Assembly (NCBI RefSeq): GCF_003427025.1
Contig: NZ_QVAI01000026.1
Span: forward strand, 1 to 64,000
Direction of reading: 5' to 3'
Length of the DNA stretch: 64,000 bases
Source: Jiangella endophytica
GTDB taxonomy: Bacteria; Actinomycetota; Actinomycetes; Jiangellales; Jiangellaceae
This document shows, in pieces, positions 1-62,870 of this stretch. Made by a program: the position numbers and the translations under genes. The notes under the pieces are model-generated. The model had not been told where the DNA came from and ran no database searches. It worked only from the letters and a program-made list of their open reading frames with translations. The first letter of the stretch is position 1, and each line of letters starts with the position of its first letter.

Positions 1-57
1 CGGGCGAGGCGGTTCGTGACGCGGGGGCGCGCCCGCACCGCCGGCGCGGGCGGTCAC
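1..57 (-). CDS. Possible start of the next gene of operon A (partial)
   Basis: A GTG at 55-57 overlaps the TGA of the LLM gene (54-56) as GTGA, the same arrangement that joins most genes in this operon. The reading frame stays open to the window edge and would begin VTARAGGAGAPPRH. Only 19 codons are visible, so no function can be given. Support comes from the operon pattern rather than from homology, and it could be untranslated 3' sequence. Confidence 0.35.
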   Translation of the reverse strand, partial: MTARAGGAGAPPRHEPPRP

Positions 58-1436
58 GACGGCCGGCGGTGGGCCGAGCCGGGATGCGTCGGGTCCGGGT
101 ACGGCGAGGCCGCGGCCGGGAAGATCCGCTCGCGCAGCGTCTCGCCCGCGCGGTAGGACTCGCGGACCAGCCCGCGCCGCCGCAGGACCGGCACGACGAG
201 TTCCACGAAGTCGCGCAGCGAGTCGAAGCTGACGTTCTGGCTCAGGTTGAAGCCGTCGATCTCGGCGCGAGCGGCCACCCGTTCCAGGGCGGTCGCGACC
301 TCCTCCGGACCACCGACGATCCGGAAGTCGCTCGGCCCGCTCCGGCGCGGCACCGGCTTCGACTGGAGGTCGCGGACGGTCTGGCCGGGCCGCCAGCCGC
401 GGATGAGCATCCGGTACCCGTGGTCCTTGCGCTTGATGATGTCCTCGACCAGTTCGCCGGGGTCGTAGCGGTCCAGTTCCGGCATGCGGCGGGGCTGGGC
501 CAGCACCTCGCGCGGCGTGCGGTGGCGGTCGTACTCGGATGCCTTCGCGGCCGCTTCGTCCGCCGTCCGGCCCACGACCACGTCGACGCTGGTGACGAAC
601 GCGATGCGGTCGGCCCGGCGGCCGTACTCGCCCGCCTGCTGCCGGACCGCCCGCACGTTCTCGCGCACCTCGTCCGCGGTCCAGCCGCCGACGAACACCA
701 CCTCGGCGTGGCGCGCGGCGAAGCTCAGACCGCGCAGGGATGTCCCGGCCTGGAAGAGGACCGGGAGCCGCTGCGGTGTCGGCGCGACCAGGTGCGGGCC
801 CTTCACCGCGAACCGCGGTCCGCGATGGTCGATGTAGTGCACCTTCGCCGGGTCGGTGAAGACGCGCCGCTCGCGGTCCAGCATGACGGCGCCGTCGTCC
901 CAGGAGCCGAGCAGCAACCGGTACAGGACCTCCAGGTACTCGTCGGCGATCGCGTACCGCTCGTCGTGCTCGATCTGCTCGTCCAAGCCGAAGTTCTCGG
1001 CGGCGTTCTTCAGGTACGAGGTGACGATGTTCCAGCCGATCCGGCCCCGCGAGAGCGCATCGAGCGTGGCGAGACGGCGGGCGAACGGGAACGGCGGCTC
1101 GTAGGTGGTGGAGAACGTTGCGACCAGTCCGAGGTGGTCGGTGACATCGGCGAGCGCGCCGAGCACGATCAGCGGATCGAGCGCCGGCACCTGGAACGCC
1201 TCGCGAACCGCGGTGTCGAGGCCGTCGGCGAAGACGTCGTAGGTACCCAGCACGTCGGCGAGGAACAGCTGGTCGAACGTCCCGTACTCCAGCAACTCGC
1301 CCAGCTCACGCCAGAAGCCGAGGTCGTCGACCCGGTGGCGTTGGTCGTTCGGGTGCGTCCACAGCCCGTGCGCCAGGTGTCCGGGCGTGGCCATCTCGAA
1401 CAGGCTGAGCAGCAGTGGCCGGTCCCGGTCAGCCAT
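54..1436 (-). CDS. LLM-class flavin-dependent monooxygenase (NtaA/SnaA/DszA type)
   Basis: This 460-residue protein has the features of the long (about 430-480 aa) NtaA/SnaA/DszA branch of the bacterial luciferase family. These enzymes use reduced FMN and O2 to oxidise small organic substrates such as sulfones or nitrilotriacetate. Visible landmarks are LFLADVLGTYD near residue 58, SRGRIGWNIVTS at about 129-140 (a flavin-site loop typical of the branch), AENFGLDE near 146, and VLFQAGTSLRG in the second half. The ATG at 1436 lies inside the end of the DszC-like gene (8-base overlap), so the two are translationally coupled. Together with the upstream importer this suggests an oxygenase for an imported organosulfur or similar compound. 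The substrate is not readable from sequence, and no flavin reductase gene is in view. Confidence 0.93.
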   Translation of the reverse strand: MADRDRPLLLSLFEMATPGHLAHGLWTHPNDQRHRVDDLGFWRELGELLEYGTFDQLFLADVLGTYDVFADGLDTAVREAFQVPALDPLIVLGALADVTDHLGLVATFSTTYEPPFPFARRLATLDALSRGRIGWNIVTSYLKNAAENFGLDEQIEHDERYAIADEYLEVLYRLLLGSWDDGAVMLDRERRVFTDPAKVHYIDHRGPRFAVKGPHLVAPTPQRLPVLFQAGTSLRGLSFAARHAEVVFVGGWTADEVRENVRAVRQQAGEYGRRADRIAFVTSVDVVVGRTADEAAAKASEYDRHRTPREVLAQPRRMPELDRYDPGELVEDIIKRKDHGYRMLIRGWRPGQTVRDLQSKPVPRRSGPSDFRIVGGPEEVATALERVAARAEIDGFNLSQNVSFDSLRDFVELVVPVLRRRGLVRESYRAGETLRERIFPAAASPYPDPTHPGSAHRRPS

Positions 1437-2691
1437 CCGCCGTGCCTGTCTCGTCGTCCGTCGTGACGGGCTCGGGCTTCGGGGGGAACGGTGGCGGCAG
1501 CTCGCCGTGCACCTCGAAGTGCCCGATCCCTCGCTGGCGCTGCAGCAGCGGGTTGTGCGTCGCGACGGTGCGGGCGTTGCGCCAGTGCCGGTCCAGCAGC
1601 CGCCCCCGTGCGGTCGTCGACGCGCCGCCGACCTCGAAGATGCGCGTCGTCACCTGCAGCACCAGCGGGATGACGGCGATCTGCGCGCGGTACACGTCGG
1701 CCTCGATGCGCTGGTAGCAGGCCGCGCCGGTCTCGCCGCGCAGCTTCGCCTCGTAGCCGAGGTCGATCCCGGCGGCAGCCTGGAGCACAGCCGCTTCCGC
1801 GGCGTACGCGAGACCGGACGCCTCCCCCAGCACGCTCTGCACCAGCGGGTCGTCCTTCGCGGCCGTCCCGTCGGCCGACACCCGGGTGCGGGCGGCGAGG
1901 TAGGCCGTCGCGTCGTCGACCGCCGCCCGGCCGATGCCGGCGAGGACCACCAGCAGGAACAGCTGGTAGAAGGCGGGCGTGTACCCGGGCTCGCGCTCCC
2001 CCCGGGTGTGCAGGCTGAGGTGCGCCCGGTCGACCGGCACGTCCGCGAACCGGGTGGTGCCGGTGCCGGTCAGCCGCTGGCCGAAGCCGTCCCAGTCGTC
2101 GAGGACGGTCACGCCGGGATCGTCGACGGCGACCGGGAAGTTCGCGTGCCCTTCGCCGTAGCGCGCAGTGGCGTTGATCAGGTCGGCGAAGATCGTGCCG
2201 GTGCTGTAGTACTTCTCGCCGTTCAGCACCAGGCCGCCGTCCGGGGTGTCGGTCAGCTCGCTCTTCGTGTCGAGCCAGTTGGCGTTGCCCACCTCGCTCT
2301 GGGCGTTGCCGACCACGATGCCGGTGACGGCACGTTCGGCCCAGTACCGCCGGGTCTGCTCGTCCGGTCTGGTCAGCCGCACCTCGAGGAAGGCGAAGTG
2401 GCCGCGCCAGATGTGCGCGACGTTGGAGTCGATGCGGGCGAGCTCGGCCAGCAGCCGGAACAGCTCGGCGGCGCTGGCTCCGGCGCCGCCGTACTGCTCC
2501 GGCACCCGCACCGATCCGAAGCCGGCGTCGCGCAGCCAGCGCACCTGCTCGACCGGCAGGGTCCGCTTCTCCTCCCGGTCGAGGACGTTCTCCCCGATCC
2601 GCGCAAACACCGGCCGGAATTGTTCGGCCAGGCGCTGATAGCGGTCCTCGCCCGCGGTGAACCGGTCCGTCGAGACGGTGTCGATCGTCAT
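1429..2691 (-). CDS. Acyl-CoA-dehydrogenase-fold flavin monooxygenase, DszC/SfnB-like
   Basis: The 420-residue product has the acyl-CoA dehydrogenase fold but matches the DszC/SfnB/XiaF-like oxygenase group better than true acyl-CoA dehydrogenases. The N-terminal helical part contains VPEQYGGAGAS (about 58-68). The middle holds NGEKYYSTGTIFAD followed by DDWDGFGQRLTGTGTTRF. The C-terminus carries LLDRHWRNARTVATHNPLL, the R-N-x-R-T motif common in DszC homologues. Such proteins use reduced flavin and O2 for sulfoxidation or N-oxidation, or act as flavin oxidases. The start at 2691 overlaps the ATPase stop as ATGA. Pairing with an LLM is the classic DszA/DszC-like or SfnB-like combination. A desulfonation or desulfurisation role is inferred; ordinary dehydrogenation of a side chain cannot be excluded. 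Confidence 0.9.
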   Translation of the reverse strand: MTIDTVSTDRFTAGEDRYQRLAEQFRPVFARIGENVLDREEKRTLPVEQVRWLRDAGFGSVRVPEQYGGAGASAAELFRLLAELARIDSNVAHIWRGHFAFLEVRLTRPDEQTRRYWAERAVTGIVVGNAQSEVGNANWLDTKSELTDTPDGGLVLNGEKYYSTGTIFADLINATARYGEGHANFPVAVDDPGVTVLDDWDGFGQRLTGTGTTRFADVPVDRAHLSLHTRGEREPGYTPAFYQLFLLVVLAGIGRAAVDDATAYLAARTRVSADGTAAKDDPLVQSVLGEASGLAYAAEAAVLQAAAGIDLGYEAKLRGETGAACYQRIEADVYRAQIAVIPLVLQVTTRIFEVGGASTTARGRLLDRHWRNARTVATHNPLLQRQRGIGHFEVHGELPPPFPPKPEPVTTDDETGTADG

Positions 2692-4337
2692 GTGTCCCTC
2701 CCCGCTGGCGTGCTCACGTGGAGTCGTGGCACGGCCGCCAGCAGTTCCTTCGTGTAGGGCTCGCGTGGTCGTGCGAAGACCTCCTCGGTCGGGCCGCGCT
2801 CGACGGTCCGGCCGTCCTTGAGCACCAGGACGTCGTCGCTCACGTGCCGGATCACCCCGAGGTCGTGTGAGATGAACAGCAGCGCCACGCCGGTCTCGCG
2901 CTGGATGTCGTCGAACAGGTCCAGGACCTGCGCCTGGATCGACACGTCCAACGCCGAGACCGGTTCGTCGCAGACGATGATCCGCGGCTCGAGCGCCAGG
3001 GCGCGGGCGATGGCGACGCGCTGCCGCTGCCCGCCGGACAGCCGGAGCGGGTGCCGGTCGAGGAACGTCGTCGCCAACCCGACCTGGTCGAGGAGCTCGC
3101 GGACCCGTCCGGCCCGGCTGCCACGACCGTCCACGCCCGCGGCGCCGACGGCCTCGGTGAGGATCCGCCTGACCGTGTGGCGCGGGTCGAACGAGCTCAG
3201 CGGATCCTGGTAGACGACCTGGATCTGCCGCCGCAGTTCGGCGGCCTCGCGACGGCCGGCGGTGGCCCAGCTGCGGCCGGCGACGGTGACCGCGCCGGCG
3301 TCCGGCTGCGTGGAGCCGAGCAGGATGCGGCCGGCGGTCGTCTTGCCGGAGCCCGACTCACCGACCAGGCCGAGCGTGCGGCCGGACTCGAGCCGCAGGG
3401 ACAGGTCGTCGACGGCGACCAGCGGCGTCCCGCCCGGCAGCCGGAACGTCTTCGTCACGCCGGCCAGCTCGGCCACCACGGTGCGCGTCGCCGGAGCCGG
3501 CGAGGCGGCGACCGGAGGGCGCCACGACCACAGCCGCTCGCCCTTGGTCCGCTCCGAGGGGACGGAGGCGAGCAGCGTCCTGGTGTAGTCGTGCCGCGGG
3601 TCCGCGAACAGCCGCGCCGTCGGTCCTTCCTCGACGATCCGGCCGTCGTTCATCACCAGGACGCGGTCGGCGATCCGGGCGACCACGGCGAGGTCGTGCG
3701 TGATGAACAGCAGGGTGTGGCCCTCGTCGCGCAGTTGCTCCAGCAGCCGCAGGATCTGCGCCTGGATGGTCACGTCGAGAGCCGTCGTCGGCTCGTCGAG
3801 GATCAGGAACGACGGCTGGGCGGCGATGGCGCTGGCGATGAGCGCGCGTTGCCGCAGCCCGCCGGAGAGCTCGTGCGGGAACTGGTGCCGACGCAGCTCG
3901 GGCTCGGGCACGCCGACGCTGCTCAGGAGCGCCAGGACCTCCTGCTGCCTACGCTCCTTCGGCCAGCCGAAGTGCGCACGGATCGGCTCCTCGATCTCCT
4001 TCGCCACCGTCCGCAGCGGGTCGAGGGAGACCAGCGCGTCCTGCAGCACGAAGCCGATCTCGCGGCCCCGGATCGAGCGCCAGTCCCGGGTGGCCAGCGA
4101 GAGCAGGTCACGGCCGCCGAAGCGCAGGCCGTCGGCCCGCACTTCCGACCGGTCACCGGTCAGCCCGACGATCGTGCGCGCGGTGACGCTCTTCCCCGAG
4201 CCCGACTCGCCGACGATCGCCACCGACTCGCCGCGCTGGACCTGGAACGAGATGCCCTTCACCACCTCGTCGCCGGCACCGCGGCCGAACGAGACCGACA
4301 GGCGCCGGACGTCGAGCAGTGCCTCGGGTGCGTTCAT
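2688..4337 (-). CDS. Dipeptide/nickel-type ABC importer ATPase, fused double domain
   Basis: This 549-residue protein carries two complete ABC ATPase domains in tandem, like a DppD-DppF fusion. Domain 1 has Walker A GESGSGKS at 43-50, signature LSGGLRQR and Walker B LILDEPTTALD. Domain 2 has Walker A GESGSGKT, signature LSGGQRQR and Walker B IIVCDEPVSALD. Each domain ends with the YTRTLLASVP or YTKELLAAVP tail of the oligopeptide family. It would energise the two permeases encoded next to it. I chose ATG 4337 because it overlaps the permease stop as ATGA and directly precedes the conserved N-terminus; the frame is open further upstream but that part runs inside the permease gene and looks non-coding. 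Both domains appear catalytically intact. Confidence 0.95.
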   Translation of the reverse strand: MNAPEALLDVRRLSVSFGRGAGDEVVKGISFQVQRGESVAIVGESGSGKSVTARTIVGLTGDRSEVRADGLRFGGRDLLSLATRDWRSIRGREIGFVLQDALVSLDPLRTVAKEIEEPIRAHFGWPKERRQQEVLALLSSVGVPEPELRRHQFPHELSGGLRQRALIASAIAAQPSFLILDEPTTALDVTIQAQILRLLEQLRDEGHTLLFITHDLAVVARIADRVLVMNDGRIVEEGPTARLFADPRHDYTRTLLASVPSERTKGERLWSWRPPVAASPAPATRTVVAELAGVTKTFRLPGGTPLVAVDDLSLRLESGRTLGLVGESGSGKTTAGRILLGSTQPDAGAVTVAGRSWATAGRREAAELRRQIQVVYQDPLSSFDPRHTVRRILTEAVGAAGVDGRGSRAGRVRELLDQVGLATTFLDRHPLRLSGGQRQRVAIARALALEPRIIVCDEPVSALDVSIQAQVLDLFDDIQRETGVALLFISHDLGVIRHVSDDVLVLKDGRTVERGPTEEVFARPREPYTKELLAAVPRLHVSTPAGRDT

Positions 4338-5245
4338 CCGGTCCGCCCTTCGACCCGGGCCTGCAACTGCCGGCCCATCGTGGTGGTGCTGATGACCAGT
4401 GCCGTGATCGCCAGGCCCGGGAACGCTCCGTACCACCAGGCGAGCTCCAGGTAGTTCCTGGACACCGACAGCATCGAGCCCCATTCCGGTGTCGGCGGCG
4501 AGACCCCGAGACCCAGGAAGCTGAGCCCGGCCCCGGCCAGCGTGGCCGTGCCGATGCCGATCGTGGCCAGCACGATCACCGGCCGGATCGCGTTGGGCAA
4601 CACGTGCCCGGTGACGATGCGCCGGCGGTTCAGTCCGATGCCGCGGGCCGCCTCGACGTACCCGGACCGCCGGACGGCCAGGGTCTGGCCGCGGATCAGC
4701 CGGGCATAGTTGGGGATGCCGGCGATGCCGATGGCCAGGACGACGTTGAGGGTGCCGCCGCCGAACACGGCGATGATCAGCAGGGCGAGCAGCAGCTCCG
4801 GGAAGGCGAGCGACACGTCGGTCAGCCGCATGAGCAGACCGTCGAGCAGGCGGTTCCCGAGTCCGGCGATCACCCCGACGACGCTTCCGACACCGACCGC
4901 GATGGCCGTGGCCCCGACGCCGAGGAGCACCGCGTTCCGGGCGCCGTGCACCAGCCGGCTGGCGATGTCTCGGCCCGACTCGTCGGTGCCGAACACGTGC
5001 TCGGCGCTGGGCGGGGCCAGGACCGCGGCGAGGTCGGTCGCCAGCGGATCATGCGGCGCCAGCAGGCTCGGCGCGACGGCGGCGAGTGCGATCAGGCCGA
5101 GCACCGCGGCCGATACCCAGAACGCCCAGCCGAAGCCGCGACGCGACCCCGCCGTCCACCGGCGTCCCGGGACGGCCACCGTGCCGGCGAGGACCGCCGC
5201 CGGCGGCGGCTCGGCCGCCTCCGTGACCTCCGGGGTCGCGCTCAC
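4334..5245 (-). CDS. Dpp/Opp-type ABC permease (DppC-like)
   Basis: The 303-residue membrane protein belongs to the DppC/OppC permease group. A hydrophilic, proline-rich N-terminal tail of about 30 residues is followed by one membrane segment and then the family motif around VFGTDESGRDIASRLVHGAR. Further membrane segments flank the EAA cytoplasmic loop YVEAARGIGLNRRRIVTGHV, which contacts the ATPase. The protein ends in the usual LSFLGLGVSPPTPEWGSML region. It starts at GTG 5245, overlapping the stop of the partner permease as GTGA, and its own stop overlaps the ATPase start. It forms the membrane channel together with the DppB-like protein. Substrate could be peptides, nickel or another small solute. 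Confidence 0.94.
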   Translation of the reverse strand: MSATPEVTEAAEPPPAAVLAGTVAVPGRRWTAGSRRGFGWAFWVSAAVLGLIALAAVAPSLLAPHDPLATDLAAVLAPPSAEHVFGTDESGRDIASRLVHGARNAVLLGVGATAIAVGVGSVVGVIAGLGNRLLDGLLMRLTDVSLAFPELLLALLIIAVFGGGTLNVVLAIGIAGIPNYARLIRGQTLAVRRSGYVEAARGIGLNRRRIVTGHVLPNAIRPVIVLATIGIGTATLAGAGLSFLGLGVSPPTPEWGSMLSVSRNYLELAWWYGAFPGLAITALVISTTTMGRQLQARVEGRTG

Positions 5246-6210
5246 GCCGTCACCTCGCTCCTGAGCCGAGGGTCGATGAGCGGGTAGACGACATCGACCA
5301 GGAAGTTCACGACGACGTACGCCAGCGCCGCCAGCAGCACCAGCCCCAGGACCAGCGGGACGTCGTTGGCGGTGACCGCGGTGACCAGGACACGGCCCAC
5401 CCCCTGCCGGCTGAACAGCGTCTCCGCGATCACCGCGCCACCCAGCAGCCCGCCGACCAGGAAACCGGTCAGCGTGGTCAGCGGGATGAGGGCGTGACGT
5501 AGCGCGTGCCGCAGCCGGACGGCGGCCTCGCTCAGGCCACGCGTGCGCGCCGTCAGGACGAACGGCTCGTCCAGCGTGTCCTCCAGGCCGTTGCGGAGCA
5601 CCTGGATCAGCGGCGGGGCGGCGCCCACCGCGATGGTCAGCGCGGGCAGGACCAGTGTCTGCCAGCCGCCGCTCCCGATGGCCGGCAGCCAGCCGAGCCG
5701 GAACGAGAACACCGTCAGCAGCACGATCCCCACCCAGAAGCCGGGCGCGGAGATGAAGAACAGCTCGACCACCGAGGAGACACCACGACCGAACCGCCGC
5801 TTCGCCGTGAGCAGCGACACGGCGAACGCCAGCACCAGCGTGGTCGCGAACGCGGCGGCCGCCAGCTGGACCGTGGGGCCGAGCTGATCCGCGATGAGCG
5901 TCGTCACCGGCTGTTGCCGCTGGTACGACGTCCCCAGGTCGCCCCGGACGAGCTGGCCGAGGTACTCCAGGTACTGCTGGTACAGCGGCTGGTCGAAGCC
6001 GTAGGTCTCCCGGATGGCCGCCACCTGCTCCGCACTCAGGCTCACCTGGTCCGGATTCCCGGCGATGGCGTACACGGGATCGCCGGGAAGCACGTACAGC
6101 GCGAGGAAGCCGAGCGTCGCCGCTCCGAAGAGAACGCCGACGCCGGCCAGCGCCCGCGCGCCGATGCGGCGCAGGTACGGCCGCACGGTCCTGCCGCGGG
6201 CCTGCGTCAC
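5242..6210 (-). CDS. Dpp/Opp-type ABC permease (DppB-like)
   Basis: This 322-residue permease has the DppB/OppB pattern. An N-terminal membrane segment ends in LYVLPGDPVYAIAG, then comes the long periplasmic segment with YGFDQPLYQQYLEYLGQLVRGDLGTSYQ. The EAA-loop region is FVLTARTRGLSEAAVRLRHALRHALIP, and the C-terminus is FLVDVVYPLIDPRLR. I place the start at GTG 6210, which overlaps the lipoprotein stop as GTGA. The frame is open for more than 400 codons upstream but that stretch lies inside the lipoprotein gene and is a shadow. It pairs with the DppC-like subunit. Confidence 0.93.
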   Translation of the reverse strand: MTQARGRTVRPYLRRIGARALAGVGVLFGAATLGFLALYVLPGDPVYAIAGNPDQVSLSAEQVAAIRETYGFDQPLYQQYLEYLGQLVRGDLGTSYQRQQPVTTLIADQLGPTVQLAAAAFATTLVLAFAVSLLTAKRRFGRGVSSVVELFFISAPGFWVGIVLLTVFSFRLGWLPAIGSGGWQTLVLPALTIAVGAAPPLIQVLRNGLEDTLDEPFVLTARTRGLSEAAVRLRHALRHALIPLTTLTGFLVGGLLGGAVIAETLFSRQGVGRVLVTAVTANDVPLVLGLVLLAALAYVVVNFLVDVVYPLIDPRLRSEVTA

Positions 6211-7862
6211 CCCGTGGCGTCCTTCCAGGTGTTGTAGAACCACAGATTCCCGTAGGCCCGGTCGAAGGCGATGTCGTGCACGTAGTCGTGGTACGACACC
6301 AGCGATGGCCGGTAGTAGAGCGGGATCGACGGGACGATCTCGGTCAGCCGCTCCTGCGCCTGGGCGTACAGACCGGCCCGCTCCTCGGTGTCGGTGGTGC
6401 TCCGGCCCTGCGAGATCAGCTGGTCCAGCTCGGCGTCGGCGGTGAAGGTCTGGTTGGTGCCACGGCGCTCGGGGGTGGTGATCTCCGACGAGTGGTACTT
6501 GATGAACAGCACGTCGGCGGTGTTCGTCGTCCAGATGCCGGCGCTGAGGTGGTGCCCGCCGTCGGCGACGATCTGCTGCTGCTGGTCGTCGGAGAGGACC
6601 TCGATGACGACCTCCACGCCGACCGCCTTGAGCTGCGACTGCGCCAGCTCGACGATCTGGTTCGCCTGGGTGACGTCGCCAAGTGTCGGGAAGTACAGCG
6701 ACAGGCGCCGGCCGTCCCGCACGCGGTAGCCCTCGGCGTCGCGCTCGGTCCAGCCGGCCTCGTCGAGGAACTCGTTCGCCTGGTCGACGTCGTACGCGAA
6801 CTCGGCGTTGGTGTTCTCGACGTACGCCGGAGTGGACGGCACGAGGAAGCCGTCGGCGACCTCCCACTCGCCGAAGGACACAGTCTCGACGATGGCTTCC
6901 CGGTCGAGTGCGGCGAAGACGCCCTTGCGTACCAGTACGTCGTCCAGCGGCGGGTTCGACTCGTTCAGCCAGAGCGCGTACGGGTGACCCGGCCGGTCGA
7001 ACTTGACGAACTCGAGGTTCTCGCTGTCGCGTACGGACTGCGCGTTCTGCGGCGGCGTCCAGTCGATGAGGTCGACGTCGCCGGCGACCAGCGCGTTGTA
7101 GCGGACGCTGTCCTCGGCGATGAAGTTGATCTCCAGGCCGTCCAGGTAGGCCGGCCCGGTGTGCGTGGCGCCGGACTCGGGCGCCCAGTCGTAGTCGTCG
7201 TAGCGCTCGTAGACGATCTTCTCGCCCTTGGTCCAGCTGACGAACCGGAACGGCCCGGACCCGATGGGGTTCTCCGCGACGGTCTCCGGCGCCTCGGCGA
7301 GCTGCTGGGGCGAGATGATCCCGAGATAGCCCTGGGCAAGCACGCTGAGGAACGCCGAGTAGGGCTCGCTGAGCGTCACCTCGAGCGTGAGATCGTCGAT
7401 CACCTCCGAGCTCTGGTAGGGCGCGAGGTACGAGCCGGCGAGCACGGCCTGGGTCGCCGGGTCGAGGGCATGCTCGAAGTTGAGCTTGAGGCCTTCGGCG
7501 GTCCACTCGGCGCCGTCGTGGAACGTGACGCCGTCGCGCAGGTGGAACGTGTACGTCAACCCGTCGTCGGAGATGTCGGCCGATTCGGCCAGCAGCCCCT
7601 CCAGCTCACCGTCCTCGGTCTGCCAGAACAGCGTGTCGAAGATCGGGCGGAAGATCAGCGGATCGTTGGAGTTTCCCTGCGACTGCGGGTCGAGTTTGGT
7701 CGGTTCCCAGGCGTTGAGCGCGACCTTGAGCACGCCGCCGGACACCGGCTGCGCGTCCGCGCTCTGCTCGCTCGCCGGCGTGGTCGAACCGCCGCAGGCC
7801 GCCGCGGCCGCGACGATCGCCAGGCCGGCCAGGACGCCGCCGGCCCTCTTCAGTGCTGCCAT
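6207..7862 (-). CDS. Extracellular solute-binding lipoprotein, family 5 (DppA-like)
   Basis: The 551-residue protein begins with a lipoprotein signal: basic MAALKR, a hydrophobic stretch, and the lipobox AAAC with the lipidated cysteine at residue 23. The mature part has the family 5 order: GGVLKVALNAWEPTKLDPQ, then LTYTFHLRDGVTFHDGAEWTAEGLKLNFE, then NPIGSGPFRFVSWTKGEKIVYERYDDYDW. It would be anchored outside the membrane and deliver substrate to the permeases. I chose ATG 7862 because it directly precedes the signal peptide; longer in-frame starts up to 7988 would bury the signal and run into the leader region. As the first large gene it is the one whose expression the upstream leader peptide and hairpin would set. 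Confidence 0.94.
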   Translation of the reverse strand: MAALKRAGGVLAGLAIVAAAAACGGSTTPASEQSADAQPVSGGVLKVALNAWEPTKLDPQSQGNSNDPLIFRPIFDTLFWQTEDGELEGLLAESADISDDGLTYTFHLRDGVTFHDGAEWTAEGLKLNFEHALDPATQAVLAGSYLAPYQSSEVIDDLTLEVTLSEPYSAFLSVLAQGYLGIISPQQLAEAPETVAENPIGSGPFRFVSWTKGEKIVYERYDDYDWAPESGATHTGPAYLDGLEINFIAEDSVRYNALVAGDVDLIDWTPPQNAQSVRDSENLEFVKFDRPGHPYALWLNESNPPLDDVLVRKGVFAALDREAIVETVSFGEWEVADGFLVPSTPAYVENTNAEFAYDVDQANEFLDEAGWTERDAEGYRVRDGRRLSLYFPTLGDVTQANQIVELAQSQLKAVGVEVVIEVLSDDQQQQIVADGGHHLSAGIWTTNTADVLFIKYHSSEITTPERRGTNQTFTADAELDQLISQGRSTTDTEERAGLYAQAQERLTEIVPSIPLYYRPSLVSYHDYVHDIAFDRAYGNLWFYNTWKDATG

Positions 7863-7914
7863 GTGGACTCCGTGTGCTCTCGGGTGTGGATGGGGTCGCA
7901 TGCTGACGCCCGGC

Positions 7915-7934
7915 TGCGGGGACCAGGTCCCGCA
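7915..7934 (-). promoter_or_regulatory. Hairpin between leader peptide and lipoprotein gene (candidate attenuator)
   Basis: TGCGGGGACCAGGTCCCGCA on the plus strand is a near-perfect inverted repeat with one extra G, and it folds just as well as RNA from the minus strand. It lies 29 bases after the leader-peptide stop and about 52 bases before the lipoprotein ATG. That is where a transcription- or translation-attenuating structure would be expected. There is no uridine run, so it is not a classical intrinsic terminator. The attenuator role is inferred from position only. Confidence 0.5.
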
Positions 7935-7963
7935 TCCGGCTGAGGTCTGTTCGAAAGAGGAGG

Positions 7964-8059
7964 TCAGACGTCCGTCGGGACCCGACACAGCAGGCTCGCG
8001 ACGCGCATCAGATCGACGTGGCGTCGCTGGGTGAGGAACGGGGCGAGCATGCTGCCCAT
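7964..8059 (-). CDS. Leader peptide with RRHVDLMRVxSxxC motif, upstream of operon A
   Basis: A 31-codon ORF starts at ATG 8059, with an alternative in-frame ATG at 8050. It contains QRRHVDLMRVASLLCR and ends shortly after at TGA 7964-7966. From memory, actinomycete genomes carry many short ORFs with the pattern R-x-H-[VI]-D-L-x-R-V-x-S-x-x-C, annotated as putative leader peptides ahead of sulfur-compound transport and metabolism operons. This one fits the pattern closely. The single cysteine codon (TGT) at residue 25 lies near the end, where ribosome stalling at low cysteinyl-tRNA could alter folding of the downstream hairpin. No strong ribosome site precedes ATG 8059, which sits only 3 bases from the inverted repeat at 8063-8079, so translation could be from a leaderless transcript. 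The peptide match is seen; cysteine-responsive control is inferred. Confidence 0.72.
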   Translation of the reverse strand: MGSMLAPFLTQRRHVDLMRVASLLCRVPTDV

Positions 8060-8062
8060 TTT

Positions 8063-8079
8063 CCTACTGGATCAGTAGG
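8063..8079. promoter_or_regulatory. Inverted repeat CCTACT-N5-AGTAGG, copy 1
   Basis: CCTACTGGATCAGTAGG is a 6+5+6 inverted repeat in AT-rich flanks (TTTT on each side). It lies 3 bases upstream of the leader-peptide ATG of operon A and overlaps the stop codon of the divergent-side flavoenzyme gene (8072-8074). Very similar sites occur at 9285-9301 and 60920-60936. Its position at the likely promoter of the leader peptide suggests an operator. The binding protein is unknown. Confidence 0.6.
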
Positions 8080-9226
8080 TTTTGAATGCCTCGTCTGCGA
8101 TGTGAGACGCGAGCGGCGACCGCGCGTACGGCAGCCTGAACCGAGGCGGCGTACGCGCACTTCCGGTGGCGAGGTCAGCCAGGACCTCCGCGGCCGCGGG
8201 CGCGAACGTGAAGCCGCGGCCGGAGCAGGCCGAGCCGACGACGATCGGACCGGCCCGATCCAGGACGAAGTCGTTGGCAGGTGTCGAGGTGGAGACGCAG
8301 CTCAGATGGCGGCCGGACGTCGCCTCGACACCAGGGACCCACCCTCGGACGTAGTCGCGCAGCTCCGTGGCCAGCCGTGCGTCGGGCAGGAACGTGCGCA
8401 GGTCGGGATCGGCCCGCACCCCGCCGCGGGCCAGCCCGACCTTCAGACCCTCCCCCGGCGTCAGCAGCCCGTAGGCCGCGCGAGCGCCACCGGACGGCTC
8501 ACCCGTGCCCACATGGTGCAGGAAGCTCGGCCAGGCCGCCGAGTCGTCGGCCGGAGCGAAGTGCGCCGGCTGGTCCTGGGTCACGACGAGGTCGGGCAGC
8601 CGGACCACGCCGCCGATCAGGTCCGGCACCCAGGGCCCGGCCGTCACGACGACCCGCCGCGCCCGGATCACCTCCGCATCGGTGCGCACGACCGCGCGGT
8701 CGTCGCCGTCGACGCCGACGTGCCGGACCGGCGTCCGGTACCTCACCTCGGCGCCCCGCTCCACCGCAAGCCGCCGCAGCGCCGCCACGCAGCGGTCGGC
8801 GTGCAGCCGGCCGGCATCGGGCTGATACAGCACCGGCGACTCGAAGCGCAGTCCGGGCCAGCGGTAGCGCGCCTGCGCCGCGGGCAGAACGGCGTAGGGC
8901 ACACGGCGGCTCGACAGCGCCGACGCGACCGCTCGCAGCGCCGCGGCATCACCATGGTCGACACCACCGGTGGTGGTGAGGAGCTCCTGCCCGCACTCCC
9001 CCTCGAGCTGGCGCCACAGCGCGAACGCGTGCTGCGCGAGGCGGACGTAGCCGGCCCGCGGGTGGGCGAGCCGGAAGCCGCGCGACGCCCCGTGCGAGCT
9101 GCCGCGCACATGCTCGGCCTCGAACCGCTCGAGCAGGACGACGTCGACCCCCCGGCGGGCCAGGCGCCAAGCGGTGGCCGACCCCACCACGCCACCGCCG
9201 ACGATGACCACGTCGCGCCGCGTCAT
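8072..9226 (-). CDS. FAD-dependent amine oxidase, sarcosine/N-methyltryptophan-oxidase-like
   Basis: The 384-residue protein is a DAO-family flavoenzyme of the monomeric sarcosine oxidase (MSOX/SolA) type, which oxidises secondary or primary amino acids and yields an aldehyde or imine plus H2O2. The N-terminal dinucleotide fold is VVIVGGGVVGSATAWRLARRG (about 6-26), followed by SSHGASRGFRLAH. The motif HLSCVSTSTPANDFVLD places a cysteine at 310 where MSOX binds FAD covalently. The C-terminal GSACSGRGFTFAPAAAEVLADL is the second flavin-contact motif. It is a single-gene unit between operon A and MarR, on the same strand as operon A, and has its own copy of the inverted repeat 59 bases upstream. 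Substrate is open: glycine derivatives, N-methyl amino acids or an amine released by the neighbouring monooxygenases. Confidence 0.92.
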   Translation of the reverse strand: MTRRDVVIVGGGVVGSATAWRLARRGVDVVLLERFEAEHVRGSSHGASRGFRLAHPRAGYVRLAQHAFALWRQLEGECGQELLTTTGGVDHGDAAALRAVASALSSRRVPYAVLPAAQARYRWPGLRFESPVLYQPDAGRLHADRCVAALRRLAVERGAEVRYRTPVRHVGVDGDDRAVVRTDAEVIRARRVVVTAGPWVPDLIGGVVRLPDLVVTQDQPAHFAPADDSAAWPSFLHHVGTGEPSGGARAAYGLLTPGEGLKVGLARGGVRADPDLRTFLPDARLATELRDYVRGWVPGVEATSGRHLSCVSTSTPANDFVLDRAGPIVVGSACSGRGFTFAPAAAEVLADLATGSARTPPRFRLPYARSPLASHIADEAFKTY

Positions 9227-9284
9227 CGCTCGACCCGGGGGACGGCCGGCGGAGGAACCATGGAACGACGCTACGGAACCAATT

Positions 9285-9301
9285 CCTACTAATCAAGTAG
9301 G
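9285..9301. promoter_or_regulatory. Inverted repeat CCTACT-N5-AGTAGG, copy 2
   Basis: CCTACTAATCAAGTAGG has perfect 6-base arms, flanked by AATT and TAAA. It is centred about 67 bases upstream of the amine-oxidase ATG (9226), a usual place for a promoter-overlapping operator. The adjoining 9302-9518 lies downstream of the MarR stop and holds no gene I recognise. Confidence 0.6.
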
Positions 9302-9518
9302 TAAAGCAAAGGCGTCGATCTCGTCGAGGATGCCCGCTCGACCAGATCGGGAGCGAACGAGGCCCGCACGCCGACGCGCGCCGACTCCGCGCACACCGTG
9401 GCCGGCGAGCTCCGCTCACGCGCGGCCGTGCGCGGCTCCGCGCCGTAGCCGGCCACTGCGGGGCGCCGCGGACCCGGTTCGCCGCACTCGCACCGTCCCG
9501 CCCCAAACATCGCGACTG

Positions 9519-10054: not shown

Positions 10055-10119
10055 GAACGAATTTCCTAGTAAGTCGATCGGCTTCATGTCTATTCCACGG
10101 CGGCGCGGAGGGGGCTCGC

Positions 10120-13496: not shown

Positions 13497-15128
13497 GTGT
13501 CCATCCGATCGCGCCGGTTCCCCCGGCTCCTCGTCGCGGCCGCGGCCCTGACCGCGCTCGTCCTCGCCGGCTGCGGCGACGACGCGTCCGACGACGCCGG
13601 CTCCGAACCCGCCGACGTGGCCTCGCCGCGGCCCGGCGGCACACTGACCGTCGCGTTGCAGACCGACCCGCTCAGCGTCGACCCCCGCGCCTACACCTTC
13701 GGCGCCGCCGTCTACGTCACCCGGCAGGTCGTCGACTCGCTGGTCGCGCAGGACCCGGCCGACGGCTCGCTGGTGCCGTGGCTGGCGGAGTCGTGGCAGG
13801 TCAGCCCCGACGCCACCACGTTCACCTTCCACCTGCGCGACGACGTCACGTTCTCCGACGGCACGCCGCTGACGGCGGAGGTGGTCAAGGCGAACTTCGA
13901 CGATCTGACGGCGAACCAGGCCACCGTGAACCCGGTGATCGTCTCGCAGCTGGCCGGGTTCGAAGCGGCGACCGTGACGGATGAGCACACCGTCGAGTTC
14001 ACGTTCACCGAGCACAATGCCGCCTTCCTGCAGGCCACGTCGGAGCCGGGCCTCGGCATCCTGGCCCCGGCGACCCTCGCGCTGCCAGTCCAGGAGCGCA
14101 CCGCCGATGTCGTCGGCACCGGGCCGTTCGTCCTGGAGTCCTACGAGAAGGACGCCGAGGTCTCGCTCGGCCGCCGCGACGGCTACGCCTGGGCGCCGCC
14201 GTTCCGCGAGAACACCGGCGCCGCCTACCTCGACCAGATCGTGTTCACCGTCGTGCCGGAGTCCGCCGTCAGGTCCGGCAGCCTGGAGTCCGACCAGGTC
14301 CTGGCCATCGCCGACGTGCCCGCCCAGGATGTCGCTGCCCTCCGCGACGGCGGGTACGCCATTGTCGACCGGCCCAACCCCGGCGTCGTCTACGGCCTGC
14401 TGCCGGTGTCGACCCCGCGCCAGCCGCTCGACGACGTGGACGTGCGCCGCGCGCTCTCGCACGCCATCGACGGCACGCTGGTCCGCGATACGGTGCTGAG
14501 CCCCGAGTTCGCCCCGGCCACCGGAGTGCTGTCCACGACGACGCCCGGGTACGTCGACCTCGGCGACGAGATCGCCTTCGACCCCGACACCGCGCGCGAG
14601 TTGCTCGACGGCGCGGGCTGGCGCGAGGGCGCTGACGGGACCCGCGAACGCGATGGCCAGCGCCTGCGCCTCGTAGCGGCGTTCCTCGACGACTTCAGCG
14701 CCAACCAACCCGCCCTGGAGCTCATCGCCGCGCAGCTGGCCGATGTGGGGGTCGAGCTGGAGCTGGCCAAGCAGGCGCCCGCCGATCTGCTGGCCGGTTT
14801 GGAGAACGTCACCACAGACCTGCTCTGGAACAGCGTCACGCGGGCCGAGGGCGACATCCTGCGGTCGTTCTCCAGCGCGCCGCCGAACTACTACCACTAC
14901 GACGACCCCGAGCTGGACGCGCTGCTAACCGAACAGCGCGGTATCGGGGACCCCGGCCGGCGCGCCGACCTGCACGCCGAGATCCAGCGGCGCATCATCG
15001 ACCAGGCGCTCATCGTGCCGGTGTTCGAGCAGACCGCCGTGCTCGCGACCAGCGCGTCCGTGCACGGCCTCGCGCTGGGCGCGAACTCGCGGCTCGACCA
15101 GCTCGGCGACGTCTGGCTGTCGGAATGA
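13497..15128 (+). CDS. Extracellular solute-binding lipoprotein, family 5
   Basis: The 543-residue lipoprotein has a basic N-terminus (MSIRSRRFPR), a hydrophobic core and the lipobox LAGC with Cys26. Family 5 landmarks are RPGGTLTVALQTDPLSVDPRA, TTFTFHLRDDVTFSDGTPLTAEVVKANFD and VVGTGPFVLESYEKDAEVSLGRRDGYAW. It starts with GTG 13497 behind GGAGG at about 13482-13486. It is the ligand-binding part of the operon B importer, and its ATGA overlap with the ferredoxin gene ties uptake to the redox genes that follow. Confidence 0.94.
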   Translation: MSIRSRRFPRLLVAAAALTALVLAGCGDDASDDAGSEPADVASPRPGGTLTVALQTDPLSVDPRAYTFGAAVYVTRQVVDSLVAQDPADGSLVPWLAESWQVSPDATTFTFHLRDDVTFSDGTPLTAEVVKANFDDLTANQATVNPVIVSQLAGFEAATVTDEHTVEFTFTEHNAAFLQATSEPGLGILAPATLALPVQERTADVVGTGPFVLESYEKDAEVSLGRRDGYAWAPPFRENTGAAYLDQIVFTVVPESAVRSGSLESDQVLAIADVPAQDVAALRDGGYAIVDRPNPGVVYGLLPVSTPRQPLDDVDVRRALSHAIDGTLVRDTVLSPEFAPATGVLSTTTPGYVDLGDEIAFDPDTARELLDGAGWREGADGTRERDGQRLRLVAAFLDDFSANQPALELIAAQLADVGVELELAKQAPADLLAGLENVTTDLLWNSVTRAEGDILRSFSSAPPNYYHYDDPELDALLTEQRGIGDPGRRADLHAEIQRRIIDQALIVPVFEQTAVLATSASVHGLALGANSRLDQLGDVWLSE

Positions 15129-25568: not shown

Positions 25569-27163
25569 CCCGTGCACCACGGGGCCTGGCCGCCGCGGCA
25601 ACGGCGGCAGCTCTGGTCCTCACCGGCTGCGGCGCCGGCCAGGACAGTGCGTCCTCCGACGACGGCCACCTGACACTCGCCTACGGCTGGTACCCAACCT
25701 GCTTCGACTACGCGCAGTCGAACCCGTTCGCGATCTTCGGACGGCAGGTGCTCGACACCCTGCTGAGCGAGAACCCCGGCACCGGCGCGATCGAGCCCTA
25801 CCTGGCCGAGTCGTGGGAGGTGCTCGACGACGGCCGCGTGTACGAGTTCACCGTGCGCGACAGCGTCACGTTCAGCAACGGCGAGGAACTCACCGCGCAG
25901 GTCGTCGCCGACAACTTCGAGACCCTCGCGCGCCTCGCCGAGCAGGGCGTCTCCCCCACCCCGGGCGCGTACCTGCGCGGTTTCGACCACGCGCAGGCCG
26001 TCGACGAGCGCACCGTTCGGGTCGTCTTCGCCGAGCCCAACGCCGGCTTCCTGCAGGCGAACACCGAGGGCCAGTTCGGCATCATCGCCCCCGAGTCCCT
26101 GGCCAGGACCCCCGAGCAGCGCTGCGCCGAAGGCACTATCGGCTCCGGCCCCTTCGTCGTCGACGAGGCCGTGCAGGACGAGCGCGTCGAGTACGTCAGA
26201 CGCGACGGCTACGACTGGGCGCCGGAGTCGTTCGGCCGCACCGGCGAGGCGGCGCTTGAAGGCGTCACGATCCAGATCGTGCCGGAGGAGAGCGTGCGCG
26301 CGGCCGGCGTGATCGCCGGCGATTACGACCTCGCGTACTCGATCACCCAGAGTGGCCTGAGCCAGGCGGAGGGTCACGACGACATCGCCACCGTGCTGGC
26401 GCCGAACCGCGGCGTCGTGAACAACTTCGTGATCAACACGACCGACCCGATCCTCGCTGACGTCGCCGTGCGTCAGGCGCTCCAGCACGGGATCGACCGC
26501 GAGGAGCTCGTCAGCACGTTCTACGGCGCGGGTGTCGAGCCGGCGACCGGGGTCGTGTCCAGCGGCCACCCCTTCTACACCGACCACGCCGACCTGCTCA
26601 GGTACGACCCCGGTCTGTCCCGGGGCATCCTCGACGACGCCGGCTGGGTCGAGGGCGCCGACGGCATCAGGGTCAAGGATGGCCGGCGCCTCGAGATCGC
26701 TCTCACCTTCGTCGGACTCGACATCGGCACCGCCGCGGCCGGATGGGAGTACGTCCAGAGCCGACTGGCCGACATCGGCGTCGCGCTCGAGCTGAACCAG
26801 GTGTCCGACGCCGAGCAAGTGGACCTGCGCACCGCCGGCGACTGGCAGTTGGCCGTGGTGCAGGGCGCGGCACGTGGTGACGCCGACGGCATCGCGGCGT
26901 TCTACTCGACCGAGCTCACCACCTGGGCCGGGCAGGCGCCGCGCCCCGAGGTCGACGAACTGCTCGCTCTACAGGCCTCCACCGTCGACCCAGACCAGCG
27001 GCGCGCTCTCGTCGACGAGGCGGTCGCCGCCATCCTGGAGCAGGCGTACGGGATCCCTCTGTTCGACTCCGCGCAGGTCCTGCTCGTGCGCGACTCCGTG
27101 GCCGAGCTGACCTTCCCCGTCAACTCGTGGGAGCCGATCCTCTACCGCGTCGAGAAAGGCTGA
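25565..27163 (+). CDS. Extracellular solute-binding lipoprotein, family 5, operon E
   Basis: The 532-residue lipoprotein has a signal with lipobox LTGC (Cys22). Family 5 landmarks are GHLTLAYGWYPTCFDYAQ at the N-terminus of the mature chain, VYEFTVRDSVTFSNGEELTAQVV, and IGSGPFVVDEAVQDERVEYVRRDGYDW. The N-terminal strand is degenerate relative to the more common GGTLxxA start. It overlaps the ATPase by four bases and precedes an LLM gene, so the bound ligand is probably the LLM substrate or its precursor. Confidence 0.93.
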   Translation: MTRAPRGLAAAATAAALVLTGCGAGQDSASSDDGHLTLAYGWYPTCFDYAQSNPFAIFGRQVLDTLLSENPGTGAIEPYLAESWEVLDDGRVYEFTVRDSVTFSNGEELTAQVVADNFETLARLAEQGVSPTPGAYLRGFDHAQAVDERTVRVVFAEPNAGFLQANTEGQFGIIAPESLARTPEQRCAEGTIGSGPFVVDEAVQDERVEYVRRDGYDWAPESFGRTGEAALEGVTIQIVPEESVRAAGVIAGDYDLAYSITQSGLSQAEGHDDIATVLAPNRGVVNNFVINTTDPILADVAVRQALQHGIDREELVSTFYGAGVEPATGVVSSGHPFYTDHADLLRYDPGLSRGILDDAGWVEGADGIRVKDGRRLEIALTFVGLDIGTAAAGWEYVQSRLADIGVALELNQVSDAEQVDLRTAGDWQLAVVQGAARGDADGIAAFYSTELTTWAGQAPRPEVDELLALQASTVDPDQRRALVDEAVAAILEQAYGIPLFDSAQVLLVRDSVAELTFPVNSWEPILYRVEKG

Positions 27164-60839: not shown

Positions 60840-60917
60840 TCAACGACAAGCCGCGGGACGGCAGCCGTCACCCACGAGACACCCGAACCGGACCGTAGTT
60901 CTCACCCGACCAACCAT
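60840..60917 (-). CDS. Short upstream ORF with three cysteine codons (leader-peptide candidate)
   Basis: ATG 60917 starts a 25-codon frame MVGRVRTTVRFGC... that ends at TGA 60840-60842, 43 bases before the regulator ATG. It contains cysteines at 13, 19 and 23, two of them next to arginine near the stop. Its ATG lies two bases from the inverted repeat at 60920-60936, just as the leader peptide of operon A begins three bases from its copy. It lacks the HVDLxR motif. Three cysteines in 25 residues could arise by chance in GC-rich DNA, so translation and function are uncertain. Confidence 0.35.
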   Translation of the reverse strand: MVGRVRTTVRFGCLVGDGCRPAACR

Positions 60918-60919
60918 AT

Positions 60920-60936
60920 CCTAGTAAATCAGTAGG
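60920..60936. promoter_or_regulatory. Inverted repeat CCTAGT-N5-AGTAGG, copy 3
   Basis: CCTAGTAAATCAGTAGG matches copies 1 and 2 at 13-14 of 17 positions, with one changed base in the left arm. It is again embedded in an AT-rich patch (ATAT before, AATAG after). It lies at the start of the short cysteine-containing ORF and upstream of the winged-helix regulator. Confidence 0.55.
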
Positions 60937-61088
60937 AATAGAGTTCGGGCCCATACTCCGAGACGGCCAGCTGCCGACCGGACGTGCTTCAGGTGATGGC
61001 CCGGGCGTCGGTGGCGCGTTCGTGCATCGGCTGTGCCGGCGTCGAGTCGAGCAGTTGCCGGGGCTAGGGGTACGCGGGCCGGGTGAAC

Positions 61089-61616: not shown

Positions 61617-62870
61617 TCATGACGTCGTCCCGGTCGCCGGCGCGGTGGTCTCCGGCGTCGTGCCGAACCGCAGTGGCGCCGGGAGCGTACCGGTCAGGTG
61701 GTAGTCGCCGATCTCCCGCTGCCGGTAGGCGACGGGGTCGTGCACGGTGTGGGTGCGCAGGTTGCGCCAGTAGATATCCAGGCCGAACGAGTTCGCCGTC
61801 GAGCGTGCACCGGTCGCGGCGAAGAGCTGGTGCGCGACGTCCAGCGATGCCTCGGTCGCCACGGACTTCGCCTGGTCGACGCGCAGTGCCAGCAGGCCCC
61901 AGTCCTCGCGCCTGAGCGCCGCTCCCGCGGCCAGCGCATCCTCGAACAACCGGGTCGCCTGTTCGGCCAGCGCGATGCCCGCCGCAACGTTCGCCGACAG
62001 CCGCCCGAACAGCTGGCGATGGTAGGGATCGGCGACGGCGGTCTCCACTCCGGCCTCGAACCAGGGCCGGCCGTGCTCGCGGACGTAGGCAGCGGCGGCC
62101 GACAGCGCACCCTCGGCGATGCCGAGATACAGGTTGACGAAGACGAGCTGGCTGAACTGCCCGCGCAGCCCGTCGCGCAGGGCGGTGTCGCCGGTGAACT
62201 CGGCGAGCCCGCCGAGCACCTCGTCAGGGCGCACCTCCACATTGTCGAAGGTGACGCTGCCGCTGGCGGTGAGCCGCTGGCCGAGGTTGTCCCAGTCGTC
62301 GCCGAAGGCGAGACCGGGCCGGTCCGGCGGGACGACCACGTTGACGGCATGGTCGCCGTAGAACAACACGGTGATGTAGTCCGCGACGGCCACGCCCGTG
62401 GCGAAGGTCCGGCTGCCGTTGATGCGGTAGCCGTCGCCGTCGCGGTCCAGTCGCACGCCCGGGTCGCGCGGGTTGCTCACGCTGCCCTGGAACCAGCCCC
62501 GTTCACCCACGCCTCGAGCGATGTACTCCCACTGCCGTGCCGTGCCGAGGAGGTAGGTCCACAGGCCGTTGGAGTAGTGGTAGGTGACGAGCTGGCCGAT
62601 CGATCCGTCCGCCGCGGCGACGACCCTGCTGAGCTCGAGCGCCTGGGCCAGGCTGCCGCCGGCCCCGCCGAACTCCGCCGGCGTGGCGAAGCCGAGCAGC
62701 CCGCTCTCGCGCAGCAGCGCCACCTCGGCCACCGGAGTCGCGTTGGCGCGATCCCGTTCCAGCGCCGTGGCCGCGAGCTTCGCCGCCACGTCGTCGGCGA
62801 TCCGGCGCCAGCGGGCGAACTCCTCGGCGGAGACACCCGGGTAGGGCGCCACCGCGGTCGTCGTCGTCAT
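61617..62870 (-). CDS. DszC/SfnB-like acyl-CoA-dehydrogenase-fold flavin monooxygenase, operon G
   Basis: The 417-residue protein has the same layout as the operon A homologue: FATPAEFGGAGGSLAQALELSRVVAAADGSIGQLVTYHYSN in the N-terminal half, INGSRTFATGVAVADYITVLF, and DDWDNLGQRLTASGSVTFDNVEV in the middle. The C-terminus has SFGLDIYWRNLRTHTVHDPVAYRQREIGDYHLTG, the R-N-x-R-T-H-T motif shared by DszC-type oxygenases. A flavin-dependent sulfur or nitrogen oxidation of a small substrate is likely. A 41-base gap separates it from the LLM gene upstream in the transcript. Confidence 0.92.
   Translation of the reverse strand: MTTTTAVAPYPGVSAEEFARWRRIADDVAAKLAATALERDRANATPVAEVALLRESGLLGFATPAEFGGAGGSLAQALELSRVVAAADGSIGQLVTYHYSNGLWTYLLGTARQWEYIARGVGERGWFQGSVSNPRDPGVRLDRDGDGYRINGSRTFATGVAVADYITVLFYGDHAVNVVVPPDRPGLAFGDDWDNLGQRLTASGSVTFDNVEVRPDEVLGGLAEFTGDTALRDGLRGQFSQLVFVNLYLGIAEGALSAAAAYVREHGRPWFEAGVETAVADPYHRQLFGRLSANVAAGIALAEQATRLFEDALAAGAALRREDWGLLALRVDQAKSVATEASLDVAHQLFAATGARSTANSFGLDIYWRNLRTHTVHDPVAYRQREIGDYHLTGTLPAPLRFGTTPETTAPATGTTS

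Follow-up and report, generated by a model that had tools for sequence, protein, structure and literature searches.

Cysteine leader peptide and palindromic operator in front of a putative sulfur-scavenging operon of Jiangella endophytica: a likely case of two-layer control

Described cysteine leaders and the layout of the locus

In mycobacteria, leaderless short ORFs carrying polycysteine tracts were described by Canestrari et al. (2020, as cited in PMC13236596 and PMC9094748), and translation attenuation of the cysteine genes of M. smegmatis is also cited in PMC13236596. In 2005, Rho-dependent control had already been suspected and predicted for the cysteine leaders of Mycobacterium and Propionibacterium (PMC1262725). 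In Firmicutes, cysteine metabolism is repressed by CymR, a regulator of the Rrf2 family (PMC3828012, PMC9338935).

The locus considered here lies in a window of 64,000 nucleotides, by which the whole stretch of analysed DNA is meant. As far as the mycobacterial polycysteine ORFs are described in the citing papers, it shares with them a short cysteine-bearing ORF, probably leaderless, placed before sulfur genes; however, those ORFs contain a run of cysteine codons, whereas the window leader has only one, and this difference counts against the model proposed below. The leaders of PMC1262725 resemble it in the cysteine codon close to the stop, the lack of a conserved terminator and the pyrimidine-rich RNA that follows, while the C-rich bias is here quantified over 104 leaders and the operator layer is outside that earlier prediction. 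With the NF042934 family of putative leader peptides are shared a score above the cut-off, the position before a sulfur operon and a key cysteine near the stop codon; the peptide itself is no different, and what is added here is a palindromic operator at a fixed spacing. Judged by gene context, the locus also resembles the CymR regulon, since a palindromic operator precedes sulfur uptake and cysteine genes and a cysteine-free, CymR-like Rrf2 protein is encoded, and a Streptomyces operator for an Rrf2 protein (NsrR) likewise has 23 bp. In contrast to that regulon, the protein found here is below the NCBIfam CymR cut-off, its binding is predicted only, and it is combined with a leader peptide. 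As in Rho-dependent leaders of the tna type, the RNA after the leader stop is C-rich and G-poor (0.22 in the window leader), whereas the intrinsic terminator with a U-run that belongs to a classical trp-type attenuator is lacking behind the window leader on the minus strand.

The elements of the locus follow each other on the minus strand in the order oxidase gene (9226-8072), palindrome (8060-8082), leader ORF, about 100 nt, and six-gene operon (7862-54). The coordinates that a first-pass annotation had assigned to the inverted repeat, the leader ORF, the hairpin and the lipoprotein gene were all borne out on re-inspection. The genes are as follows:

6207..7862, minus strand: substrate-binding lipoprotein, TIGR04028-like, first structural gene (NCBIfam, 244.8 bits, below the cut-off of 468.5)
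5242..6204, minus strand: ABC permease, Opp2B/NikB-like (profile search)
4334..5245, minus strand: ABC permease, Opp2C/NikC-like (profile search)
2688..4340, minus strand: double ABC ATPase (profile search)
1429..2691, minus strand: SfnB/DszC-like flavin monooxygenase (TIGR04022, 247.7 bits, below the cut-off of 430.9)
54..1436, minus strand: NtaA/DmoA-family FMN-dependent monooxygenase (TIGR03860, 456.1 bits, cut-off 279.7)
8072..9226, minus strand: sarcosine/N-methyltryptophan oxidase-like gene, with its own operator at 9282-9304 and without leader, its stop codon lying inside the 8060 operator

From its predicted products, the six-gene operon behind the leader looks like one of the sulfur-scavenging type. 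The same function had been proposed for it (as operon A) in the first-pass annotation, and it is supported by the TIGR04028-like binding protein, the permeases, the double ATPase, the SfnB-like flavoenzyme and the NtaA/DmoA monooxygenase. Lipoprotein paralogues are found elsewhere in the window on the plus strand (13542-15077 and 25583-27118), and several SfnB-like and luciferase-like genes are also present, such as those at 61617-62870 and 62912-63979 on the minus strand; the 64-kb window looks like a sulfur-scavenging island.

It is likely that this operon is controlled in two layers, by a repressor acting on the palindrome and by the cysteine leader, with the regulator, the sign of control and the leader mechanism being those that we infer below. 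Orthologues of the lipoprotein were found only in Microbacterium relatives (66% identity), without leader and without palindrome, and within the genus neither a close lipoprotein orthologue nor an orthologous leader-bearing locus was found. The conservation of the intergenic region that had been expected before homologous lipoprotein genes thus held only in part: the Microbacterium orthologues lack both elements, which counts against the two-layer model, whereas leader and inverted repeat are conserved together before other sulfur genes of the genus.

The palindromic operator

In CCTACTGATCCAGTAGG (8063-8079), two 7-bp arms form a perfect inverted repeat around a centre of 3 nt. It extends to a 23-bp near-palindrome (8060-8082) that overlaps the oxidase gene upstream at its stop codon. 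The window was scanned with an operator matrix built from 17 sites, all of them outside the window, and 100 simulated windows served as the null. Exactly four strong sites (20-34 bits) were returned, the next best match having 8.2 bits and the null maximum being 13.4:

8060..8082, unstranded: 23-bp palindromic operator before the leader, core 8063-8079, CCTA-N9-TAGG (27.6 bits, matrix from 17 sites outside the window)
9282..9304, unstranded: second operator, before the oxidase gene 9226-8072 (minus strand), without leader (32.2 bits)
10062..10084, unstranded: third, weaker operator, before the permease of operon B (start 10120, plus strand), without leader (20.3 bits)
60917..60939, unstranded: fourth operator, before a cysteine-bearing short ORF and a winged-helix gene (60796-60209) (33.8 bits)

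Because the site at 8060 reaches 27.6 bits against a null maximum of 13.4, the repeat is more than chance, and on its sequence it is an operator common to the sulfur genes of the genome, not a local accident. About 14-17 copies of the palindrome TTTCCTA-N9-TAGGAAA lie near leaders and sulfur genes of the same genome, where the pattern counts were 15+12 matches versus 3+4 for the reversed control, and most of the leaders of this genome are preceded by the operator. In the genus, an in-frame ATG or GTG was found 8-10 nt after the 23-bp site in 10 of 10 close cases, and palindrome and leader occur together in G001, G002, G004, G005, G008, G009 and G010, the palindrome preceding the matched motif by about 20 nt. 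All 12 genus genomes carry the leader ahead of sulfite reductase. In 11 of them the palindrome stands there at the same position, with inner bases that vary between species, and in G006 it is degenerate. Outside the genus the palindrome is rare (it reaches at least 15 bits with 4 of 85 leaders, 0.25 being expected).

Both elements also occur singly, as symporter-type leaders lack the operator and the operators at 9282 and 10062 lack a leader; the operator-free leaders count against the two-layer model. The reading of the inverted repeat as an operator, already made in the first-pass annotation, is supported by its recurrence before other leaders and sulfur genes and by its score relative to the null. 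The dual control suggested along with it is well supported as an architecture by the leader's family membership and the recurring operator, and this architectural conclusion is sound because the operator recurs before other leaders and sulfur genes.

The operator at 8060-8082 probably overlaps the leader promoter. The palindrome overlaps TAGGAA/T, a candidate -10 element, and a sigma-70 consensus scan found no promoter in the 8060-8082 region; the leader transcript would be leaderless.

The leader peptide and its cysteine codon

The following features belong to the leader:

7964..8050, minus strand: cysteine leader ORF MLAPFLTQRRHVDLMRVASLLCRVPTDV, 28 codons, starting 9 nt after the operator as in sister leaders (NF042934, 30.2 bits, cut-off 27)
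7985..7987, minus strand: key cysteine codon UGU, with six codons between it and the stop (UGU in 110 of 110 leaders, genome background 10.6%)

A longer in-frame version, MGSMLAPFLTQRRHVDLMRVASLLCRVPTDV, runs on the minus strand from an ATG at 8059 to the stop at 7964 (31 codons), and the second in-frame ATG, at 8050, appears the likelier start because related leaders begin 8-10 nt after the operator. Compared with NF042934 ('putative leader peptide', cis_reg_atten), the leader obtained 30.2 bits, and 29.4 bits (E 9e-6) in the whole-genome search, the curated cut-off being 27. Since the profile score exceeds the NCBIfam cut-off, the window leader is, on its predicted peptide, a new member of this known, actinomycete-wide family, and its position ahead of SfnB-like and NtaA/DmoA-family genes agrees with the placement of the family ahead of sulfur or cysteine genes. 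With NF042933, the Ms5788A leader family, it scored 28.3 bits, under the cut-off of 45, and no known riboswitch or other Rfam family was found at the locus.

NF042934 was detected in 88 of 148 genomes of the class, representing 44 of 70 genera (E 1e-5), and in none of 14 control genomes. The genome studied here contains eight matches at E <0.001, six of them above the cut-off, and at least three further leaders recognized by motif pattern (two on contig C25 and one on C5). The genes that follow these sister leaders include a sulfite reductase and a cysteine dioxygenase (Pfam), and the other loci, assigned mainly by reading sequences, comprise a sulfate ABC operon, a sulfonate ABC/monooxygenase operon and SBP/SfnB operons. 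The first-pass assignment of the peptide to a short actinomycete leader pattern near sulfur-compound operons is supported, the peptide scoring above the NF042934 cut-off and the sister leaders preceding sulfur genes.

Several arrangements were observed beside these. Two leaders with the identical peptide MAAASVELTIRRVVDYMRVASTRCR lie on opposite strands of contig C25 (L075, about 1700-2400), each near an operator and ahead of SfnB-like and binding-protein genes. On contig C89 (L029, 243385-243657), one operator is common to two divergent leaders; a sulfate ABC locus that includes a winged-helix gene lies on one side, and another transcription unit on the other. In the window, a 25-codon ORF, MVGRVRTTVRFGCLVGDGCRPAACR (60840-60917, minus strand), comes directly after the 60917 operator and ahead of a winged-helix gene; it is without the VDLxR motif, yet it ends in UGU-CGU-UGA like NF042934 leaders, and it is possibly a divergent cysteine leader. 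The sulfite reductase leader (L284-L295) shows, over 12 species, no synonymous change in twelve consecutive codons up to and including UGU, and in the same 12 species a GC-rich inverted repeat, CCGGGCGCGCGGTCGCGCCGG, placed shortly after the stop, is nearly invariant. A comparison of these codons with those of the sulfite reductase gene itself could be shifted by gaps in two genomes, and no conclusion here draws on it.

The cysteine located six residues after the conserved arginine is encoded by UGU in all 110 distinct leaders (25 from the genus and 85 from outside), and UGU is rare in this high-GC genome, accounting for 22 of 207 cysteine codons (10.6%). The cysteine that forms part of the DL-C-R motif provides an internal control within this leader set, being UGC in 38 of 40 cases. 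The leaders were collected by protein search, so that codon identity was not selected for; they are related by descent, so that p-values overstate the significance. The absence of UGC at the key position points to selection, as judged from these codon counts, because base composition favours the one transition that would turn UGU into UGC, and it is absent across dozens of genera. A pyrimidine (C or U) follows the key codon in 109 of the 110 leaders, and the stop is reached within five codons of UGU in 90% of them, the window leader having six codons between. Among class-wide leaders, 69 of 73 use AGC or AGT for the serine three codons upstream of the key cysteine, and the serine one codon earlier is mostly TCC; the AGC/AGT bias may reflect an RNA-level constraint or ancestry, and it is not used here as evidence because AGC and TCN are two changes apart and the bias could stem from ancestry.

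Proposed mechanism and competing explanations

Three features of the RNA bear on how the leader may act:

7864..7963, minus strand: C-rich, G-poor stretch, candidate Rho-entry region (C 41, G 26; skew 0.22)
7910..7939, minus strand: hairpin CCGGATGCGGGACCTGGTCCCCGCAGCCGG, without U-run, competing with pairing to the Cys region of the leader (-18.3 kcal/mol)
7976..8005, minus strand: 3' half of the leader ORF, a possible partner of 7932-7897 in competition with the hairpin (first of 104 leaders by predicted fold and duplex, nominal p 0.005, about half of one such value being expected by chance in that number of leaders)

Over the 100 nt after the stop, the skew of C over G averages 0.22 in the family (104 leaders), equals 0.22 in the window and is 0.05 in control upstream regions (p 3.5e-19), reaching 0.25 when only the leaders of the genus are taken. 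This C-rich, G-poor composition fits Rho-dependent or translation-coupled control, for which it is suggestive only.

In the mechanism that we propose, a dimeric repressor would bind the palindrome 8060-8082 and keep the operon off at plentiful sulfur, this repressor most likely being the single typical, CymR-like Rrf2 protein of the genome. In the second layer, transcription would begin at or just before the leader start codon, nine bases after the operator. When cysteinyl-tRNA runs short, the ribosome would slow or stop at the single UGU codon of the leader, where it would cover the stop codon or sit just before the C-rich stretch, so that Rho could not load (or downstream initiation would be freed) and the operon would be expressed. 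With ample cysteine, the ribosome would complete the leader and leave, and transcription or initiation would be cut off. Stated at its most specific, one invariant UGU read slowly by the single tRNA-Cys would form a one-codon attenuator without terminator hairpin in actinomycete cysteine leaders, and within this genus the hard-wiring of the leader to a CymR-like repressor operator at nine-base spacing would make an AND gate for sulfur starvation; this fuller version is put forward tentatively, as a reading that falls somewhat short of probable.

Translation attenuation has a real but smaller chance of being the correct description of the leader. By this account, structure in the RNA after the leader would conceal the place where ribosomes bind ahead of the lipoprotein gene, a ribosome stalled on the leader would keep that place open, and Rho would play no role. 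The M. smegmatis cysteine genes, as cited in PMC13236596, provide a precedent, the Cys region of the window leader pairs strongly with downstream RNA (the nominal p of 0.005 given above), the start region of the lipoprotein gene is paired in the predicted fold, and structure is modestly enriched in the family 0-75 nt after leader stops. However, the predicted pairing over the lipoprotein start was the same in the ribosome-free and ribosome-occupied folds tried, and pairing between leader and downstream RNA is absent on average (mean z -0.09, 104 leaders).

It is unlikely that the leader works as an arrest peptide, in which the nascent chain R-x-VDL-x-R-x-A-S-x-x-C would stall the ribosome as a response to some metabolite, making the peptide the sensor instead of tRNA-Cys charging. 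The strongly conserved residues before the cysteine, the C or U after the codon in 109 of 110 leaders and the single cysteine of the window leader would agree with such an arrest, but a purely peptide-based mechanism leaves unexplained why the codon is UGU and never UGC in 110 leaders.

Returning to the first layer of the two-layer model, the likeliest binder of the palindrome would be the cysteine-free, CymR-like Rrf2 protein. The genome encodes one clear member of this family (C10:49853), whose sequence contains no cysteines and aligns with CymR of S. aureus and B. subtilis (E 7e-18 and 1e-15; PDB), and which is present in 12 of 12 genus genomes; in the NCBIfam CymR comparison it is under the cut-off (80.2 bits versus 195). 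IscR and NsrR carry a cysteine-ligated cluster, and the Rrf2 protein, unlike these, cannot hold one because it has no cysteine in its sequence. In G014, which belongs to another genus of the family, rrf2 comes last in a sulfonate ABC operon that has the palindrome at its head. The gene is not adjacent to the window operon, and no operator indicating autoregulation was found at rrf2 loci; this distance, the lack of an own operator and the CymR score below the cut-off point against Rrf2 as the repressor. Binding by an orphan winged-helix (Trans_reg_C) protein is a rather improbable alternative: such genes do stand behind two operators, one at 60917 and one at the sulfate locus of contig C89, but the protein is absent (E 1e-20) from five genus genomes, of which G001, G007, G003 and G011 have the operator.

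A classical attenuator, in which the hairpin at 7939-7910 would be an intrinsic terminator and leader pairing with its left arm the antiterminator, is very unlikely. From the leader stop to the inner stem (7934-7915) there are 29 nt, and with its CCGG flanks the hairpin spans 7939-7910. The 30-mer, chosen as the best of about 100 nt, gave z -2.9 (p 0.006 versus shuffles), and 0.6% of the 30-mers of the window fold equally well; by this folding model the hairpin is weakly beyond chance. The hairpin and the competing pairing are both present, but there is no U-run, the terminator scan found no intrinsic terminator with a U-run on the minus strand, and the fold of the whole UTR is ordinary (z -0.28). 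Moreover, a ribosome on the Cys codon would mask the leader arm and let the hairpin form, which is the wrong way round for a terminator. The hairpin attenuator or terminator of the first-pass annotation was not sustained on these grounds, the leader pairing being strong here (nominal p 0.005) but not general.

That the 8060 repeat is a transcription terminator or a chance palindrome is scarcely credible: it is terminator-like with TTTT on the plus strand and takes in the oxidase stop codon, but no plus-strand gene appears to end at it, and the palindrome recurs, flanked by A/T on either side, at fixed spacing before leaders across the genus.

We found no description of the fixed coupling between leader and operator, or of the invariant UGU, in the papers searched, which include few subscription papers, and the novelty of both is provisional. 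Cysteine leaders of the NF042934 type, whose first prediction dates from 2005, are widespread in actinomycetes. With its internal UGC control, the invariant UGU, together with the C-rich stretch after the stop, turns a 'putative leader peptide' into a specific prediction, and the operator defines a genus-wide sulfur regulon with a named candidate repressor.
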